Origin: Bradyrhizobium zhanjiangense
GTDB lineage: Bacteria > Pseudomonadota > Alphaproteobacteria > Rhizobiales > Xanthobacteraceae
Assembly: GCF_004114935.1 (NCBI RefSeq)
Contig: NZ_CP022221.1
Span: 7,771,001 to 7,835,000 of the forward strand
DNA: 64,000 bases
Direction of reading: 5' to 3'
Part shown: piece by piece, positions 39,365 to 45,898 of the stretch
Numbering within the stretch: the first letter of the stretch is position 1
How the letters are laid out: every line of letters begins with the position of its first letter
The notes under the pieces: generated by a model
Database searches by the model: none
What the model was told of the DNA's origin: nothing
Seen by the model: the letters and a program-made list of their open reading frames with translations, nothing else
Translations under genes and position numbers: made by a program

Positions 39365-39439
39365 GGGCGCATAGCTCAGCGGGAGAGCGTTCCCTTCACA
39401 CGGGAGAGGTCCAAGGTTCGATCCCTTGTGCGCCCACCA
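39365..39439 (+). tRNA. tRNA-Val (CAC)
   Basis: GGGCGCA/TGCGCCC acceptor stem, D-arm GCTCAGCGGGAGAGC, anticodon loop TTCACAC with anticodon CAC, T-arm CAAGG-TTCGATC-CCTTG and an encoded CCA end at 39437-39439. It forms the left border of the island described at 39440-45822. Confidence 0.95.
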
Positions 39440-39796
39440 TTTAGCCTTTTAGAACCAGGTAGTTAGGGATCTTATTCCCTTGATGTGTGCCCCGAAAAAG
39501 CTGGGGCACAGCAGGGGCACGATGGGCTTTGACAAAAATTGCTCCACCCGGAGCTAACCCTCGCAGGCACCCATCGACAATGCCCGCGCCTGACCGGTTG
39601 CGAGATACTTTAGCGCAGACCGCTAAGCTTATGGTCAGGTACGAAGGTTACGCGCCCCCCTCGCACGCCCTCACCGTTGAGGCTCCTTTTGAGAGGGCGG
39701 CATCGCGCTATGAAGGCGCGCATGACGCTCATGCCCGGCGCGGCGTACAGGGACGTGCGCAGTTGTCCTATCCCTGAGCGCCGTAGCAGCACCACC

Positions 39797-40034
39797 ATCC
39801 CCTCGATGGCTTCAAGGAAGGAAACTCCGCCACGCCGTCTCCAACCGCATGAGCGCCTCCGTCGTCGGAGGCAGCCGGGCGCGATCGAGTTCGGACAGCT
39901 TGAGTTTTGCCGCCGACTGAATTTGCGCAATCGAGCGGCTAATCGACGGGTGCGCGGTGTTGAGTTTGTTTGCGGCCGCGATCTCGTGCGGTGAGTATGA
40001 ACGCGCGAAAAGCCTCGATCTGACGAAAATTCAG
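39797..40034 (-). pseudogene. LysR-type regulator remnant
   Basis: The minus strand from 40034 reads LNFRQIEAFRAFILTA, like the start of a LysR regulator, then in another frame HEIAAANKLNTAHPSISRSI and KLKLSELDRARLPPTTEALM, matching the helix-turn-helix and the wing of the same family. One frameshift lies near 39990-40000 and the effector domain is missing. It is a relic. Confidence 0.5.
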
Positions 40035-40155
40035 GCGCTGCGCCACACGCGAGCCCCGACTATGGCGATGCGTCAGGCATCAACGGCGCGGGACGATATG
40101 GCAACCAGGTACAGGGATGTCACAACGACCGCGGATATCCATCTGCGAAGCCCAT

Positions 40156-40323
40156 TCATGCGGGTGCATTGGCCATGAGATAGGTGGCGAAGCTGACGTA
40201 TTTGTTCAGTTTAGGACAGTCGAGAAGGCGGGCTACACCGCTCTTGCTGAGGGGGCCCGGGTCAGCTTCGAGCGCAAGACGGGCAGCTAGGGCAAAGTGT
40301 AGCACCACGATAAGCGTCCTCAT
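40156..40323 (-). CDS. possible small protein (55 residues)
   Basis: A frame with a well-placed GGAGG before ATG 40323. The translation begins with a hydrophobic stretch (TLIVVLHFALAARLAL) and ends KYVSFATYLMANAPA. No family is recognised. It may be a remnant of a larger gene of the island. Confidence 0.35.
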   Translation of the reverse strand: MRTLIVVLHFALAARLALEADPGPLSKSGVARLLDCPKLNKYVSFATYLMANAPA

Positions 40324-40364
40324 TGCCTCCGGTTTCCTGCGACGCCCGAACCTCGTTTATCGAG

Positions 40365-41989
40365 TCAGACGGACTGCCGGCGAGCTCCGCGATTGCGGAC
40401 GTCGAAGCCATGCGCAGTCAGATAGTGGCGTGCCCGCGCGTTTCCTTCGGGCAAACTTTCGATGAGGCGCTCCGCGGCGGTGGTGTAGACTTCCTCGACG
40501 GGGTCGGCGGCGACCGGCAGACCCTCGCGCGTGACGGGCGTCCATTTCCTCTCGGTCAGAACGGAAAGCCGTCCGGCGGACCCTTCTCTGACGCGGACGA
40601 AGCGCAGTTTCTTCCACAACGAGGGAGGCGCGGCGGCGACGTCCTCGAGATAGATGTCCGAAGAGATGTTCTCGTGGGAAAGCCAGGACCACAGCGACCG
40701 GGCGGAGGTGGAATCCACCAGCACCAGCGCGTTGGCATCTTCGGCCGCAAACTCGTCCACCACGCGCCGCACGAAGGACAGGAAGTTTTCGCGCCTCTCG
40801 GGCTGCTTCTCTCCGAGCGATGTGATTCCGGCCGACGCGACCGCGGTCAGCGTCTTCGAGAGAGCTTCGAACTTACCGGTATCCACCGCGCCGTTGCGCA
40901 GAAATCCGAGCCTCCCCGATATGCGGCCTGTGGCGACATCGGTCTTCATCGCCACCGCGATCGTCGCTCCTCGGGGCGGCCGGTGCGGGAGCCGGCCTGC
41001 GACACGATCGAGATGCCGACGATGGCGCGAGGCCCGGGGAGCATCGACGAACGCAGCTTCCACGATGGGCGCCGGTACCGGTCCGAGCCCCGCATGACCG
41101 AAAAGCAGGTCGTAGAGTGCCGCCTGGATGCGATGCATATTCGGCGGCATGGCCAGCCGTCGGCGGGAGGAGATACTGGACGTTGCTGCCGGCGACCGTA
41201 GCCAGCGTGTTCCGGCCTACGCTCTTGTTGACCTCGTCTTCGTCCTTGCCGTCGTATTTGAGCGCGGCTTGGACGATGACGGGCGCTCCGGAAAACCCGG
41301 TCCGGATCCGCTCGGCGAGCGGCAGCCAAGCTTCCCTCCGGGCGGCGGCCCTCTTGAGCCTGCTATTCATAACGTCGCCGTCCAATTGCTGGCGGGTGCC
41401 GTGCACGCCGTCGGGCATCGCGTGGCGGACTACGTTCACCCGATCTCCAAAGATCAATGAGACGACGGAAGCGAACAGACGCCCCTCCTCCTCGCGCCGG
41501 CAAACGAACATCAAATTGATAGGGATGCCCTCGCCGAAGGCCTTGTCGAGACGCTCCCGGTTGGCCTGTACCAATGGTTCGAGCGGTACGGCCTTGACGG
41601 AGCTTCGCGGCCTCGCCTCTTCTTCTCAGGCGCGCCGAACAACTCCTCGACCCGCGCCGGCACATCCTGCTCTTCCACCCGCCCGAAATGATGGTTGATC
41701 AGGTTGTGCAGGGTCGCCTGGTCATGGGATTCCTTGGGCCGCTTGATCATCGCGTCGACTTCCCTAAGCCGGGGCTCCTGAAAACCGAAGCCGCCGATCG
41801 GCCTTCTTCGTTTCGACGGCATTGCGCGCAATGCGCTTGAGAACATCCCTCGTGGTCGAGGTCCAACCGAAGCGCAATGGCGGCACCGGCGATGGAGTCG
41901 ACGGAGGTAGTCCCCGCCAGACAAAACGCGCTCTCGAGGATGCTCTGATCCCCATACGATCGGACGAACAGCGTCTCTTCGTCAGTCAT
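40365..41989 (-). pseudogene. broken gene resembling pPIWI_RE (PIWI/Argonaute-like) proteins
   Basis: Readable pieces occur in changing frames. From 41989: FVRSYGDQSILESAFCLAGT, then KRPKESHDQATLHNLINHHF, then INLMFVCRREEEGRLFASVV, VIVQAALKYDGKDEDEVNKS, NVQYLLPPTAGHAAEY, then MHRIQAALYDLLFGHAGL, IVGISIVSQAGSRTG, and from about 40980 AVAMKTDVATGRISGRLGFL, ALVLVDSTSARSLWSWLS and LRFVRVREGSAGRLS. The order (MID-like, helical HRxxAALxDLL step, then RNase H-like block with 'S/A-R-x-LW') is what I recall of the pPIWI_RE family proposed as a phage/plasmid defence module. At least four frameshifts make it non-functional as read. The family assignment is by memory, not by search. Other PIWI-like or unrelated island proteins remain possible. 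Confidence 0.5.
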
Positions 41990-42135
41990 TCGGGATCCAT
42001 TTCCGGGAAGATCACGTTGGCGCAGTTCCGCAGCGGATGCAGGAAAGGCTCGTAGAGGAGCCGGTAGACCTCGCGTTCGACCGCATCGGCGGAGGAGAGA
42101 AGCTCCTGCAGAACGTCGCGCATCGCCACGATCAT
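41986..42135 (-). CDS. short protein upstream of the pPIWI_RE-like remnant
   Basis: 49 residues from ATG 42135: VAMRDVLQELLSSADAVERE followed by VYRLLYEPFLHPLRNCANV. Its stop overlaps the next start as ATGA, as in a coupled operon. It is probably the N-terminal part or partner of the broken gene downstream. No known family. Confidence 0.45.
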   Translation of the reverse strand: MIVAMRDVLQELLSSADAVEREVYRLLYEPFLHPLRNCANVIFPEMDPE

Positions 42136-42426
42136 GCTTGAGCGTTACAGAGAAGGATTGATACAGCCATAGTATAAGACCGCCTTAATGCGCTAAATAT
42201 ACACGGCACCGAAGACATACTTTGCCCGCATCGCGCCCTCCGCCGCTGGGCGTTGTAGATGCTTCTTGAACGAGCTCCTTGGCACGCGAGCTGCGAAGAG
42301 AGGTGGTCGCCCAACTGCGTCGACACCGGCGGCGATGGCGGGACTATTTTCTTCAATTGATGTAATTCTTGCTGCAAGCGTCGTATAGATGTTTGATTTG
42401 CTCCGGTGTAACTTTCGGGAGCGAGA

Positions 42427-44069
42427 ATGATGGCCAACGCGCTCGATATCTATAAGGCTCATCCGGTACGATCGCAGCTCGGCATGAGAGCGGCACAATA
42501 TGTCCGCATGTCGACACAACGGCAGCAATACTCGATTCAGAATCAGGCTGCTGTGATTGCAGCATACGCGCACCCCATAGCCTGACCATTGTACGAACCT
42601 ATCGCGACGAGGGAGAGAGCGGCCTGCTCATCAAGAACAGGGCCGGTCTTATACAGCTCATCAAGGATGTCCAAACAGGAGAAGCCGATTTCGGTCATAT
42701 TCTGGTCTATGACGTAAGCCGGTGGGGCCGCTTTCAGGACGTCGATGAGAGCGCATATTACGAATTCGTATGCAAACAGGCAGGCATCAACATCGTGTAT
42801 TGTGCTGAGCAGTTTGACAATGACGGCAGCGTGCTCTCCAGCATCATCAAAAACATCAAGCGCGTAATGGCAGCCGAGTACAGTCGTGAGCTTTCGGCGA
42901 AGGTCCACGCTGCGCAGTGCCGGTTCGCCCGACTTGGCTTCAAGCTCGGAGGTCGCCCTGGTTATGCTCTCTTGCGAGAACTTGTCGACCAGAGTCAGCG
43001 GTCGCGAGGCGTGCTGAAGAACGGTGACCAAAAGTACCTCATGACTGATCACGTCCGAGTGCGACCCGGCATTCCCGAGGAAGTAGCCGTGGTGAAGTGG
43101 ATCTTCGAGCGCTTTCTGCAGGTAAAGTCGGAAGCGACTATCGCCCGGGAGCTAAACCGGAGGGCCATACTCACAAGCACGGGAGTTCGGTGGACGCGCG
43201 CAGCGGTTAACACGGTGCTTAGAAACGAGAACTACATTGGAAACCTGACCTTCAACCGCCGATCACGCAAGCTGCGGCGGAACTGCACCTGCAATCCTCC
43301 CGAGCTTTGGATCACCAGCGAGAGATGTATCGAGCCGATCATCGAACGCGAAGTCTTCCTGAAAGTAAACAAGATCATTGAGGAACGGCGTGTCGATCTC
43401 ACTGAAGAGGAGATGCTTGCCCGTCTACGCAAAACGCTGCTCAAGGAAGGGCGCCTGAGCTCTGCTATCATAGCCAGCACGGTCGGCCTTCCCTGCGCTT
43501 CCACCTATCAAACTCACTTCGGCAGCATGATGAACGTGTATCGGTTAATCGGCTACACTCCCAAGCGAAACTATGCATTTCTTGAGTCTCGTCCGCGCTG
43601 GGCGGAGCAAGAGGCCAAGCTGGGCTCTCACATCGCCATGGCCATCAGGAAAGCTGGTGGTCGCATCACCTCTAGCAACCGGACCGATTACTTGCGCGTG
43701 CGTGGATCGGTCAACATCTCAATTCGATCAGCCCTCTGCTGCGGAAGGCAAAATCGAGCGCCGTATTGGTCGATCAAGCGCAGGGCACGCCTGCCTCAGG
43801 GCTGGATCGCCGCCATCAGGCTGTCTGAGCATAACGAGTCAGTGCTCGATTACGTACTGCTGTCGGCCGACGGGAAAGTAAAACGAACCATAAACTTTTC
43901 TGAGAGGGCTCGCGTTCGTCGTGGAATCGCTCGCTTCGATACCCCTGACGCTTTGGCTCGAGCGATCGCCAAGCTAGTAACACTTAAAGACCGTTGTGCA
44001 CCAGCACCACAGGACAAGCGATCGAGACCAAAGCAACTCCACACCAAGAACGCCCGCGCGCGGCGCTGA
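42427..44069 (+). pseudogene. large serine recombinase, frameshifted
   Basis: The first frame from ATG 42427 contains the catalytic serine region AAQYVRMSTQRQQYSIQNQA and stops at 42583. The rest lies one frame back: HSLTIVRTYRDEGESGLLIK, GHILVYDVSRWGRFQDVDES, NIKRVMAAEYSRELSAKV, then the recombinase domain (IARELNRRAILTSTGVRWTR, NTVLRNENYIGNLTFNRRSR). Restoring one C in the CCCC run at 42573-42576 joins the frames. Such enzymes integrate or invert DNA in phage and integrative elements. From 42795 onward it is a continuous frame of 424 codons. Confidence 0.8.
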
Positions 44070-44321
44070 TCAGACGCAGGCACGAAACTCCGCAAAGCAG
44101 TGCTTTATAATCTTTTGGAAGCTTGTCCAGATTTCGAGCGCCTTCACTCTTGCCGCGTGCCGCATCATGTTCCACAAGCCAAGTCCGTGATCATGCGCGC
44201 ATACTGACCCATTTCCACGCCTGGCTGGCCGAACATACGACAGCCGATCCCACACTCTTTGTTCGGCCGCATTTTCGGGTTTGATCGAAATCCGGCGCCA
44301 TTCAGAGCAGTGGAGCACAGG
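44070..44321. other. spacer inside the island
   Basis: The spacer contains no feature I can support. Confidence 0.3.
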
Positions 44322-44600
44322 GTGGCGGAGCCGCGTGGCATCTCGAAAAAACAAGCTGCGGCTTACGCTGGCTGCGAGTCGCTTTCGGCGTTCAACGAAT
44401 GGGTTCGACGCGGAATCATGCCTAAACCGATTCCCGGAACACGCAAATGGGATAGAAAAGCTATTGACGCGGCCCTTGACCGGCTATCTGGTTTACAGCC
44501 TAAGATTGAAGCTCAACTAACACCATACGACGCATGGAAGGCTTCCCAGAATGCGAGTGCGGCTGAAAGGGATCAACTGGTCCATAAAAAAGCTCGCTGA
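44322..44600 (+). CDS. excisionase-like DNA-binding protein
   Basis: 92 residues from GTG 44322, with GGAG 7 bases upstream. A helix-turn-helix of the AlpA/excisionase (MerR-like) kind is seen: ISKKQAAAYAGCESLSAFNE, WVRRGIMPKPIPGTRKWDRK, AIDAALDRLSG. It overlaps the integrase gene start by 50 bases, the usual xis-int arrangement, and should direct excision or regulate integration of the island. Confidence 0.65.
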   Translation: MAEPRGISKKQAAAYAGCESLSAFNEWVRRGIMPKPIPGTRKWDRKAIDAALDRLSGLQPKIEAQLTPYDAWKASQNASAAERDQLVHKKAR

Positions 44601-45594
44601 CGGTACATCGAAGACCTACTGGTACGCTTGGAAAGGAGGTCCGCGCATTGACGCGGAACCCGGCACACCGGAGTTTATGCGCCTCTACAACGAAGCAGTG
44701 TCGCCGTACACAACGAAGACTGCCGAGACGTTTAGCTCGCTCATTGACTACTTCAAGGACTGTTGCGAGTACAAAGATCTCGGCGACAAGAGTAAGCGCG
44801 CTTACGATGGATATCTCAAGCTCGTCGATACCAAGTTTGGATCGATGCCAATCGGCGCTCTCGAAGACAAGCGCGCGAGGGGTGACTTCAAAGAGTTTCG
44901 TGATTCATTCTCCGATACGCCGCGCAAGGCGGACTACGTTTGGACAACGATTGCTCGTGTTCTGTCGGTTGCGAAGGATCGCGGCAAGATCACAGTGAAC
45001 GTTTGCGAGCGCGGCGGGCGGCTTTATGACTCTGATCGATCGGAGATCGTGTGGAGCGCCGAGGACATCCGGGCCTTCTGCAGCGTTGCGTCCGTTGAGC
45101 TGCAGGCGGCTCTACTGCTTGCACTGTGGACGGGCCAGCGCCAAGGGGACCTGCTGCGCCTAACTTGGAAGGACTACGATGGCACGTACATCCGGATGCG
45201 TCAGTCTAAGGGACGCGGCAGCAAGGGCAGGCGCCGTGTAACCATACCGGTGGGGCCGCCGCTAAAGGCAGCGCTTGATGCTGCGCTCAAGGAAAAGCGC
45301 TCTGCAGTGACCATTTTGGTCAATTCGTTCGGACGGCCGTGGACGGAGGACGGCTTCAGGACGAGCTGGGACAAGGCCTTTAAGAAAACGTCCTTGAAGG
45401 ACCTGCACTTCCATGATTTGCGCGGCACTGCTGTTACGCGTCTCGCGCTATCGAACTGCTCGGTGCCAGAGATCGCCTCGATCACCGGCCACTCGATGAA
45501 GACCGTGCAGGAGATCCTGGACACGCACTACCTGGGTGGCCGGCTCGAACTCGCGGAGTCAGCGATCAAAAAGCTGAGCGAAGTGTACGGGTAG
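44551..45594 (+). CDS. int: tyrosine-type site-specific integrase
   Basis: 347 residues. The catalytic residues are present: R197 (LALWTGQRQGDLL), H288 and R291 (FHDLRGTAV), H314 (ITGHSMKTV) and Y327 (LDTHYLGG). The N-terminal SAM-like core-binding domain spans about 55-150. It is intact and is the closest gene to the 3' end of tRNA-Lys (228 bases away), the probable attachment target. Confidence 0.9.
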   Translation: MRVRLKGINWSIKKLADGTSKTYWYAWKGGPRIDAEPGTPEFMRLYNEAVSPYTTKTAETFSSLIDYFKDCCEYKDLGDKSKRAYDGYLKLVDTKFGSMPIGALEDKRARGDFKEFRDSFSDTPRKADYVWTTIARVLSVAKDRGKITVNVCERGGRLYDSDRSEIVWSAEDIRAFCSVASVELQAALLLALWTGQRQGDLLRLTWKDYDGTYIRMRQSKGRGSKGRRRVTIPVGPPLKAALDAALKEKRSAVTILVNSFGRPWTEDGFRTSWDKAFKKTSLKDLHFHDLRGTAVTRLALSNCSVPEIASITGHSMKTVQEILDTHYLGGRLELAESAIKKLSEVYG

Positions 45595-45822
45595 GAACAA
45601 CAGATTGGGATGTGGATCGATTCCAGGTGAAGGCGTCCTCGGTCGCCAAGGCTTCTGCGTGAGAGAGTGCTCCACGGCGCCGCGGAAACGAGCTAGTCTA
45701 GACGTTGCGGTAACGCGCAGCCATCCCGCCATCGGCGTACGGACAATGAACAGATTTCTCAAACCGGACGTCAAACCGAATGGTCCGTTCTGACGCGCAC
45801 TGCTGTAAGTGCTTGATTTGCT
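45595..45822. other. spacer between integrase and tRNA-Lys
   Basis: No gene. An attachment site would be expected here or in the tRNA; I could not pair it with a copy elsewhere in the window. Confidence 0.4.

Positions 45823-45898
<76 letters not shown>

Follow-up and report, generated by a model that had tools for sequence, protein, structure and literature searches.

Remnant of a predicted five-gene pPIWI-RE operon, with a pPIWI_RE/ATPase fusion gene, in the genome of Bradyrhizobium zhanjiangense

The described system that comes closest to the locus examined here is the three-gene pPIWI-RE system (Burroughs et al., PMC3702460; profiles PprRE, PprDinG, and PprPIWI in PADLOC). With this system, as described there, the relatives of our locus share the REase, DinG and PIWI order of genes with overlapping ends, the X, MID, and RNaseH_pPIWI_RE domains of the PIWI protein, and a patchy distribution that is suggestive of horizontal transfer. 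The same paper proposed recognition of a guide or R-loop, with DinG and the REase, for the three-gene system. The pPIWI_RE family has been little studied, a restriction role for it having been proposed in 2013 and one biochemical study of a member being found among the matches listed. For PsPIWI-RE of Pseudomonas stutzeri, a member of the same family, both RNA-guided DNA cleavage and DNA-guided RNA cleavage are described (PMC10991935); unlike this protein, as described, the large proteins reported below apparently lack the first catalytic Asp, and their PIWI part is fused to another protein and encoded in an operon. They also differ from the three-gene system in that PIWI forms only the first third of a protein of about 3100 aa that ends in a predicted AAA+ ATPase, and in the addition of a gene for a HEPN-motif/polynucleotide-kinase protein. 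The usual pPIWI_RE gene is likewise much shorter, the PADLOC PprPIWI profile having 718 positions in comparison to about 3100 aa for the fusion. A word search of the main text of PMC3702460 found none of the terms AAA, ATPase, HEPN, WYL, or Bradyrhizobium. This was the one paper with the term 'pPIWI-RE' among the CC-licensed PMC papers searched, none of which contained both 'PIWI-RE' and 'HEPN' as whole words.

Three other known systems bear comparison. In short prokaryotic Argonautes of the SPARTA/SPARSA type, an inactive PIWI that is loaded with a guide acts as the sensor and sets off a toxic effector separate from it; the parent of our locus differs from these in its PIWI family, in a putative ATPase relay, and in having HEPN/kinase instead of TIR or SIR2. 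Las1-Grc3 is the HEPN nuclease and polynucleotide kinase of eukaryotic rRNA processing, and the likeness to it, which is one by description, lies in the pairing of a HEPN RNase with a polynucleotide kinase, whereas here both are predicted within a single bacterial polypeptide of a mobile operon. Bacterial Pnkp (TIGR04075) is matched by the kinase of this polypeptide both by profile and by fold, in the kinase domain only (positions 9-95 of 851). By sequence comparison, the locus is a dead member of a known family, and its predicted parent is new in fusing a giant AAA+ ATPase and adding a HEPN/kinase gene.

The broken pPIWI_RE gene

The window that was analysed consists of 64,000 nt of the 9.34-Mb single-contig genome of Bradyrhizobium zhanjiangense (label G000; NZ_CP022221.1:7771001-7835000). 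It contains a 1.8-kb dead gene fragment for a bacterial PIWI (Argonaute-like) protein, here called the fossil, which extends from 40367 to 42146 on the reverse strand. These bounds are based upon DNA homology, and those of the initial annotation (40365-42135) lie close to them. When the pieces of the fossil were searched separately, ORF by ORF, the ORF at 40365-41150(-) scored 48 bits on the RNaseH_pPIWI_RE profile PF13032, whose cut-off is 25 (E 2e-12), and the ORF at 40873-41574(-) scored 25.6 bits on the MID_pPIWI_RE profile PF18157, whose cut-off is 26.6 (E 1.6e-5). Although the latter score falls just under the cut-off, the MID assignment was accepted because the domain of the intact homologue passes it (39.2 bits). 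The PADLOC PprPIWI profile also matched the fossil (E 1.7e-10), and NCBIfam gave nothing significant for its pieces. No other PF13032 match was found in the B. zhanjiangense genome, and none of 14 control genomes matched this profile. The second profile named for a check in the initial annotation, PF13111 for the X domain, fared differently from PF13032: it gave no match in the B. zhanjiangense genome, nor in the control genomes, and even in an intact relative its match, at 29.8 bits and E 4e-7, stayed just below the cut-off of 30.5. In the fossil, the region of the X domain lies largely inside an internal deletion of about 0.9 kb.

By tblastn, an intact relative matches 40350-41989 in several frames (73-91% aa identity), in keeping with the claim that several frames in order encode pPIWI_RE segments. 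A reversed-protein control gave no match in the window, by which a chance profile match was ruled out. DNA identity of the fossil amounts to 85-94% with the three fused loci L014, L016, and L020 and to 67-78% with L017 and L018; with L013, a single piece of 156 columns matches (71%). Two parts of it are 94 and 86% identical to the intact copy on the conjugative Bradyrhizobium elkanii plasmid pK07G (L020). The conserved R motif of the family is present, and the position of the family E lies beyond the truncated end. The profile matches (PF13032 and MID) and the DNA identity to intact loci together confirm the initial family call, and the feature is confirmed, at the level of sequence, as a broken pPIWI_RE gene.

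Across the intact relatives, the gene encodes a pPIWI_RE/ATPase fusion of 3.0-3.4 kaa, referred to below as the giant, in which pPIWI_RE makes up the first third of about 3100 aa. The parts of the fossil are as follows.

41986..42146, reverse strand: terminal ~53 codons of a dinG-type helicase gene whose remainder is missing; matches codons 1075-1126 of DinG (1126 aa) from genome G204 at 90% aa identity
41791..41989, reverse strand: start of the giant pPIWI_RE gene, first ~66 codons in two frames; by tblastn, residues 1-26 and 22-66 of the giant from G204 are matched at 73% and 84% aa identity
41798..41802, reverse strand: junction of the internal deletion of ~0.9 kb (giant residues ~67 to ~365, most of the X domain), by blastn
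40367..41799, reverse strand: giant pPIWI_RE gene, residues ~365-850, with small frame-changing indels; 94% DNA identity to pK07G (L020) and 86% to L014/L016
41095..41355, reverse strand: MID_pPIWI_RE domain, profile positions 44-132 of 141; PF18157 E 1.6e-5, one bit below the curated cut-off
40542..40859, reverse strand: RNaseH_pPIWI_RE (PIWI) domain, truncated, profile positions 51-164 of 288; PF13032 48 bits, E 2e-12

A small coupled gene had been noted upstream of the PIWI segments. It is present at 41986-42135, but it is not a gene of its own, being the 3' end of dinG (90% aa identity over 52 codons). This tail is the sole match to the G204 DinG in the genome (E 7e-24), and PADLOC PprDinG matches it at profile positions 896-925 of 930 (E 0.012). 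The start of the giant gene (41989) overlaps the dinG stop by 4 nt, and an identical overlap is found in 6/8 intact loci. The bases that adjoin at the deletion junction are 912-915 bases apart in L014, L016, and L020. At the other end, DNA homology to the giant ends at 40367, which leaves the RNaseH domain truncated near residue 850 (of 940); no part of the operon was found beyond this point, as expected from the earlier remark that nothing recognisable lies downstream. About 1.6 kb of the 9.3-kb giant gene remains.

The REase and the ATPase half of the giant were not found in the 9.34-Mb genome by queries that match in genomes G204 and G220, which served as positive controls, and nothing of dinG beyond the tail was found in the genome. 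The HEPN/kinase protein was not found there either, although a like search found it in 15/265 genomes of the genus. Of the REase-DinG-PIWI series, the window has the dinG tail and a partial PIWI gene only. As far as these sequence searches reach, nothing of the operon is left in this strain except the end of dinG and a portion of the first third of the giant gene.

Intact relatives and the five-gene layout

Matches to PF13032 were found in 10 of the 265 genomes of the genus, B. zhanjiangense included. In five of these (G028, G052, G081, G204, and G220) the match lies within an open frame of 3038-3304 codons and in three (G151, G186, and G216) within one of 918-967 codons, and genome G120 has a partial match (profile positions 196-286). 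The five genomes with the long frame have the same layout, consisting of genes for a WYL regulator, a REase (370-373 aa), a DinG (1126-1129 aa), the giant (3035-3104 aa), and a protein of 542-559 aa. In G204, the PADLOC profiles PprRE (1e-49), PprDinG (3e-161), and PprPIWI (2.5e-43, residues 44-944) were all matched. A like layout is present on the conjugative B. elkanii plasmid pK07G, and three more plasmids match. The expectation that an intact relative could define the missing partners was borne out by this finding of a WYL regulator, a REase, DinG, the giant fusion, and a HEPN-motif/kinase protein.

Together with pK07G, Microvirga sp. VF16, and Azospirillum oryzae, the five genus genomes provide eight intact fused loci. 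In all eight, the REase, DinG, and PIWI genes follow one another in that order with overlaps of -1 to -14 nt, and the last gene stands behind the giant at a spacing of -4 to 92 nt. A WYL domain protein is encoded upstream in 8/8 (recognised by profile in seven, and by annotation and tblastn in pK07G); its gene is divergent in 7/8 and runs in the same direction in G028. One open frame is kept in fused proteins that share only 30-37% aa identity. On pK07G, genes for DUF6361, phospholipase D, and a DEAD-DEAH helicase adjoin the intact operon and are possibly a second defence system (L020:22125-28176).

In wider samples, PF13032 is rare at E 0.001, with 2/385 genomes of the class and 3/398 of the phylum, counts that each include the B. 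zhanjiangense genome, one of the phylum three being below the cut-off. In a genome from another family of the class (G298, L108:11227-19512), pieces of a giant lie in two frames and are followed by a HEPN/kinase match, and this locus is probably a second broken copy. A contig scan with two strict patterns gave six Bradyrhizobium loci, a number that sets no bound on the distribution; with two strict patterns of low sensitivity, no relative of the giant was found in viral contigs.

The 15 genus genomes with a match to the HEPN/kinase protein include those with intact loci (G028, G052, G081, G204, and G220), those with remnants (G054, G118, G142, G194, and G213), and G050 with a PIWI-less pair; G121 and G122 (small pieces near contig ends) and G130 and G172 (short or weak) were left out of the count. 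Thus, in comparison to five intact operons in 265 genomes, remnants besides that of B. zhanjiangense are present in G054, G142, G194 (on both plasmid and chromosome), G213, and G118. In G142 and on the G194 plasmid, a full-length last gene still follows the end of the giant. Such repeated erosion in Bradyrhizobium fits a costly system; alternatively, it could reflect fast turnover of plasmids and islands. In G142 (L055:9434-11518), the remnant of the giant's end and the full-length HEPN/kinase gene lie near genes that, by eye, are C5 cytosine methyltransferase-like and Vsr-like.

The ATPase, its partner, and a possible mode of action

An Agrobacterium plasmid encodes a free-standing ATPase of 1970 aa, residues 15-1909 of which align with residues 1074-3032 of the giant (38% identity over 1474 aa); a search of the locus around this ATPase found no PIWI part. 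In the giant, a whole second protein is thus joined behind the PIWI half. Related free ATPases are present on plasmids of Thiodictyon, Salinibacter, Brasilonema, Methylocystis, Bosea, and others, and in Bradyrhizobium G050. Matches to the ATPase, fused forms included, were found in 25 of 72,556 plasmid records, ten of which were opened (Agrobacterium, Microvirga, Bosea, Thiodictyon, Brasilonema, Methylocystis, Salinibacter, Bradyrhizobium sp. 186, one B. elkanii, and A. oryzae; A. ramasamyi was left out). A profile of the ATPase core from 13 sequences matched Cdc6/ORC structures in the PDB (E 1.9e-5), the match being local and covering about 110 positions. Walker A is present in 13/13 of the ATPases and the Walker B pattern in 12/13, the 13th reading LLLLDESD. 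In Pfam, AAA_22 was matched, with weak NB-ARC/STAND-like matches in some relatives. The C-terminal part of the giant is predicted to be an AAA+ ATPase, tentatively of a Cdc6/ORC-like subfamily by the resemblance of its core. NCBIfam has no family for the giant. PDB sequence searches gave no match for the giant or for the HEPN/kinase partner as single sequences, nor for the pPIWI profile, and PADLOC gave only marginal PDC-S matches on the free ATPases (L047 and L050, E 0.0009-0.04). The AlphaFold model of the ATPase half was poor (pLDDT 48.5).

In a tree of 15 ATPases, the eight fused forms did not form one clade, and the free Agrobacterium form was sister to the fused form of G028 (100/100). 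A clade of fused forms was rejected by the AU test (p 4e-51), in a tree in which four free forms are on long branches. This branching implies at least two events, either fusions or a fusion and a later loss, and hence the join may be functionally loose. On the Brasilonema octagenarum plasmid pBOCT2 (L051:7795-14664), a relative of the ATPase half carries an N-terminal sigma-70 factor (regions 1.2, 2, 3, and 4), which suggests that different front ends may be plugged into this ATPase.

In the protein encoded by the last gene, an R-x4-H motif (R354...H359) is invariant in all 12 aligned partner proteins. The HEPN_Swt1 profile matched it with E 0.017-0.1, below the cut-off, and the assignment of a HEPN-type domain is a prediction based upon this motif and the weak profile matches. 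The C-terminus is of the PNK-type P-loop kinase kind: its profile matched the polynucleotide kinase of Clostridium thermocellum (E 7e-12), and the fold match was tied with other small P-loop kinases. The AlphaFold model of the partner is poor (pLDDT 51.7) and usable at about residues 280-380 and in parts of the kinase. Fold comparison of this model gave kinases and no HEPN chain among the best 50 rows; since these rows were filled by the kinase domain, the absence of a HEPN chain is no argument against HEPN. A short partner from Salinibacter gave a single row against the PDB, at chance level (E 0.47).

The partner gene also adjoins the free ATPase in 4/7 PIWI-less loci, namely those of Agrobacterium, Thiodictyon, Salinibacter, and G050. 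The Thiodictyon partner was recognised only in the alignment, having been missed by tblastn, and hence the lack of a partner is unproven for Bosea, Brasilonema, and Methylocystis, in which tblastn found none. The free-standing pairs (L047, L050, L053, and L061) consist of an AAA+ ATPase of about 1930-2040 aa and a HEPN-motif protein with or without the PNK kinase, and a WYL gene lies upstream of the pair in L047 and L061. This ATPase-HEPN pair is a candidate for an undescribed defence system. Seven viral contigs (L068-L074) match the kinase end of the partner only.

For the PIWI half, 15 pPIWI_RE proteins were aligned and the columns were assigned by eye in an alignment without any proven active member; the column presumed to hold the first catalytic Asp (strand 1) contained Asp in 0/15 of them. 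The Arg of the family is present in 15/15 and its Glu in 12/15; the remaining proteins have Asp (two) or Asn (one), and all three are giants (Microvirga, Azospirillum, and G028). As described for PsPIWI-RE, residues D525 and D610 are needed for cleavage, and R639 and E718 are dispensable (PMC10991935). Because the presumed first catalytic Asp is absent from all 15 proteins and D525/D610 are needed in PsPIWI-RE, target cutting by the PIWI of the giants is unlikely, and a role as a binder is more likely than one as a cutter.

These sequence features lead us to infer that, in the parent operon, a sensor directed by a guide is coupled to an alarm module made up of an ATPase and an RNase. In this scheme, the pPIWI_RE half would bind a small guide and/or the RNA-DNA hybrid of invading DNA, DinG would open R-loops, and the REase would cut DNA, as in the three-gene proposal of Burroughs et al. 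Target binding would be relayed within one polypeptide to the AAA+ ATPase, which would switch on the HEPN RNase of the last gene, leading to RNA cleavage and to dormancy or cell death. The polynucleotide kinase might process the RNA ends made by HEPN, so as either to push decay onward or to permit repair and reset, and the WYL protein would control the operon. The explanation as a whole, namely a remnant of a five-gene operon in which a guide sensor would act through the ATPase upon a HEPN RNase/kinase, is in our judgment probable. We put forward more tentatively, as a possibility, that the parent is a guide-directed abortive-infection machine rather than a restriction system, in which a catalytically dead pPIWI_RE would drive the giant AAA+ ATPase to fire a HEPN RNase that carries its own polynucleotide kinase; the ATPase-HEPN pair would then be a general alarm module with different sensors (pPIWI_RE, or the sigma factor in Brasilonema). 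The relatives traced from the fossil provide a concrete, intact, plasmid-borne operon. Cleavage of RNA and phosphorylation of its ends, as predicted from the last gene, can be measured, which makes the response of a pPIWI_RE system to its target directly testable.

An alternative reading is that the parent was an ordinary three-gene pPIWI-RE restriction system and that the ATPase and the HEPN/kinase protein are a fused bystander defence system that works alone. The pair does occur without a nearby PIWI in Agrobacterium, Thiodictyon, Salinibacter, and Bradyrhizobium G050, and pPIWI_RE, REase, and DinG occur without the pair within 20 kb at three loci of the same genus (L011, L012, and L015). 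The sister position of the Agrobacterium free ATPase to the fused G028 form also favours such independence. However, the DNA of the fossil is 85-94% identical to three loci of the fused kind, and its start matches that of the fused protein. Moreover, a one-frame fusion that is kept at 30-37% aa identity, with the last gene close behind in 8/8 loci, would be hard to explain without joint function. We therefore regard the bystander reading as unlikely.

Inactivation of the gene and its genomic setting

Over the 1432 positions that align with L020 (pK07G), the fossil differs by 79 substitutions, and it has four indels of 1-2 bases. The substitutions are distributed 16/10/53 over codon positions 1, 2, and 3, and the same comparison for pairs of intact genes gave 33/15/145, 33/15/149, and 30/15/160. 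No stop codon was found in the homologous frame of the fossil in the 475 codons aligned with L020. From these codon-position splits and the lack of stops, it follows that most of the divergence arose under selection and that the wreck is recent.

The open frame over 475 codons, and the 53/79 changes at third positions, would also be expected of a short pPIWI gene that is still used, by frameshifting or as a split protein. This reading is very unlikely: the 0.9-kb deletion takes away most of the X domain, the RNaseH domain breaks off at about residue 850 of 940, the frame changes at several unlinked places, and no REase, ATPase half, or HEPN/kinase gene was found in the genome. Programmed frameshifting in particular is ruled out by the deletion and the truncation. 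A reading in which the gene is otherwise intact and its frame changes come from sequencing errors is more improbable still. The indels of the larger part are of only 1-2 bases, and some of the small ones could be assembly errors; assembly error alone is ruled out, since it explains neither the 0.9-kb deletion nor the loss of two thirds of the gene, nor why the other operon genes were not found. The wrecked state first suspected for this gene is thus upheld by the internal deletion, the frame changes, and the truncation. Sequence comparison shows the fossil to be a recently inactivated remnant of the type of five-gene pPIWI-RE operon that is also present on conjugative plasmids, and the fossil itself is expected to do nothing.

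The fossil had also been described as part of a tRNA-bounded island, and the elements around it are the following.

39365..39439, forward strand: tRNA-Val(cac); homology to relatives stops at its 3' end or less than 90 bases from it
42427..44069, forward strand: large serine recombinase gene beside the fossil; PF07508 1.3e-23 on 42795-44069
44551..45594, forward strand: tyrosine integrase gene; PF00589 2e-17
45823..45898, reverse strand: tRNA-Lys(ctt), the start of the right-hand conserved flank, by tRNA call and comparison with relatives

The serine recombinase gene is apparently broken near its start, with ORFs at 42427-42585 and 42795-44069 in different frames (joined by eye). A search for direct repeats as att sites between the tRNAs yielded one 18-nt family in unrelated places. 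In blastn comparisons with five opened relatives, homology of the left flank ends at window positions 39439-39528. Both tRNAs are present as claimed, but the description as an island is borne out only partly: both flanks were found in eight relatives, on one contig in five of them, where they are 0.29-4.4 Mb apart (in G088, at 6.90 versus 2.53 Mb), and on different contigs in three, for which the distance is not shown. Because the flanks lie so far apart in relatives, the stretch 39365-45898 is probably a rearrangement junction that joins two tRNA sites and not one simple island.
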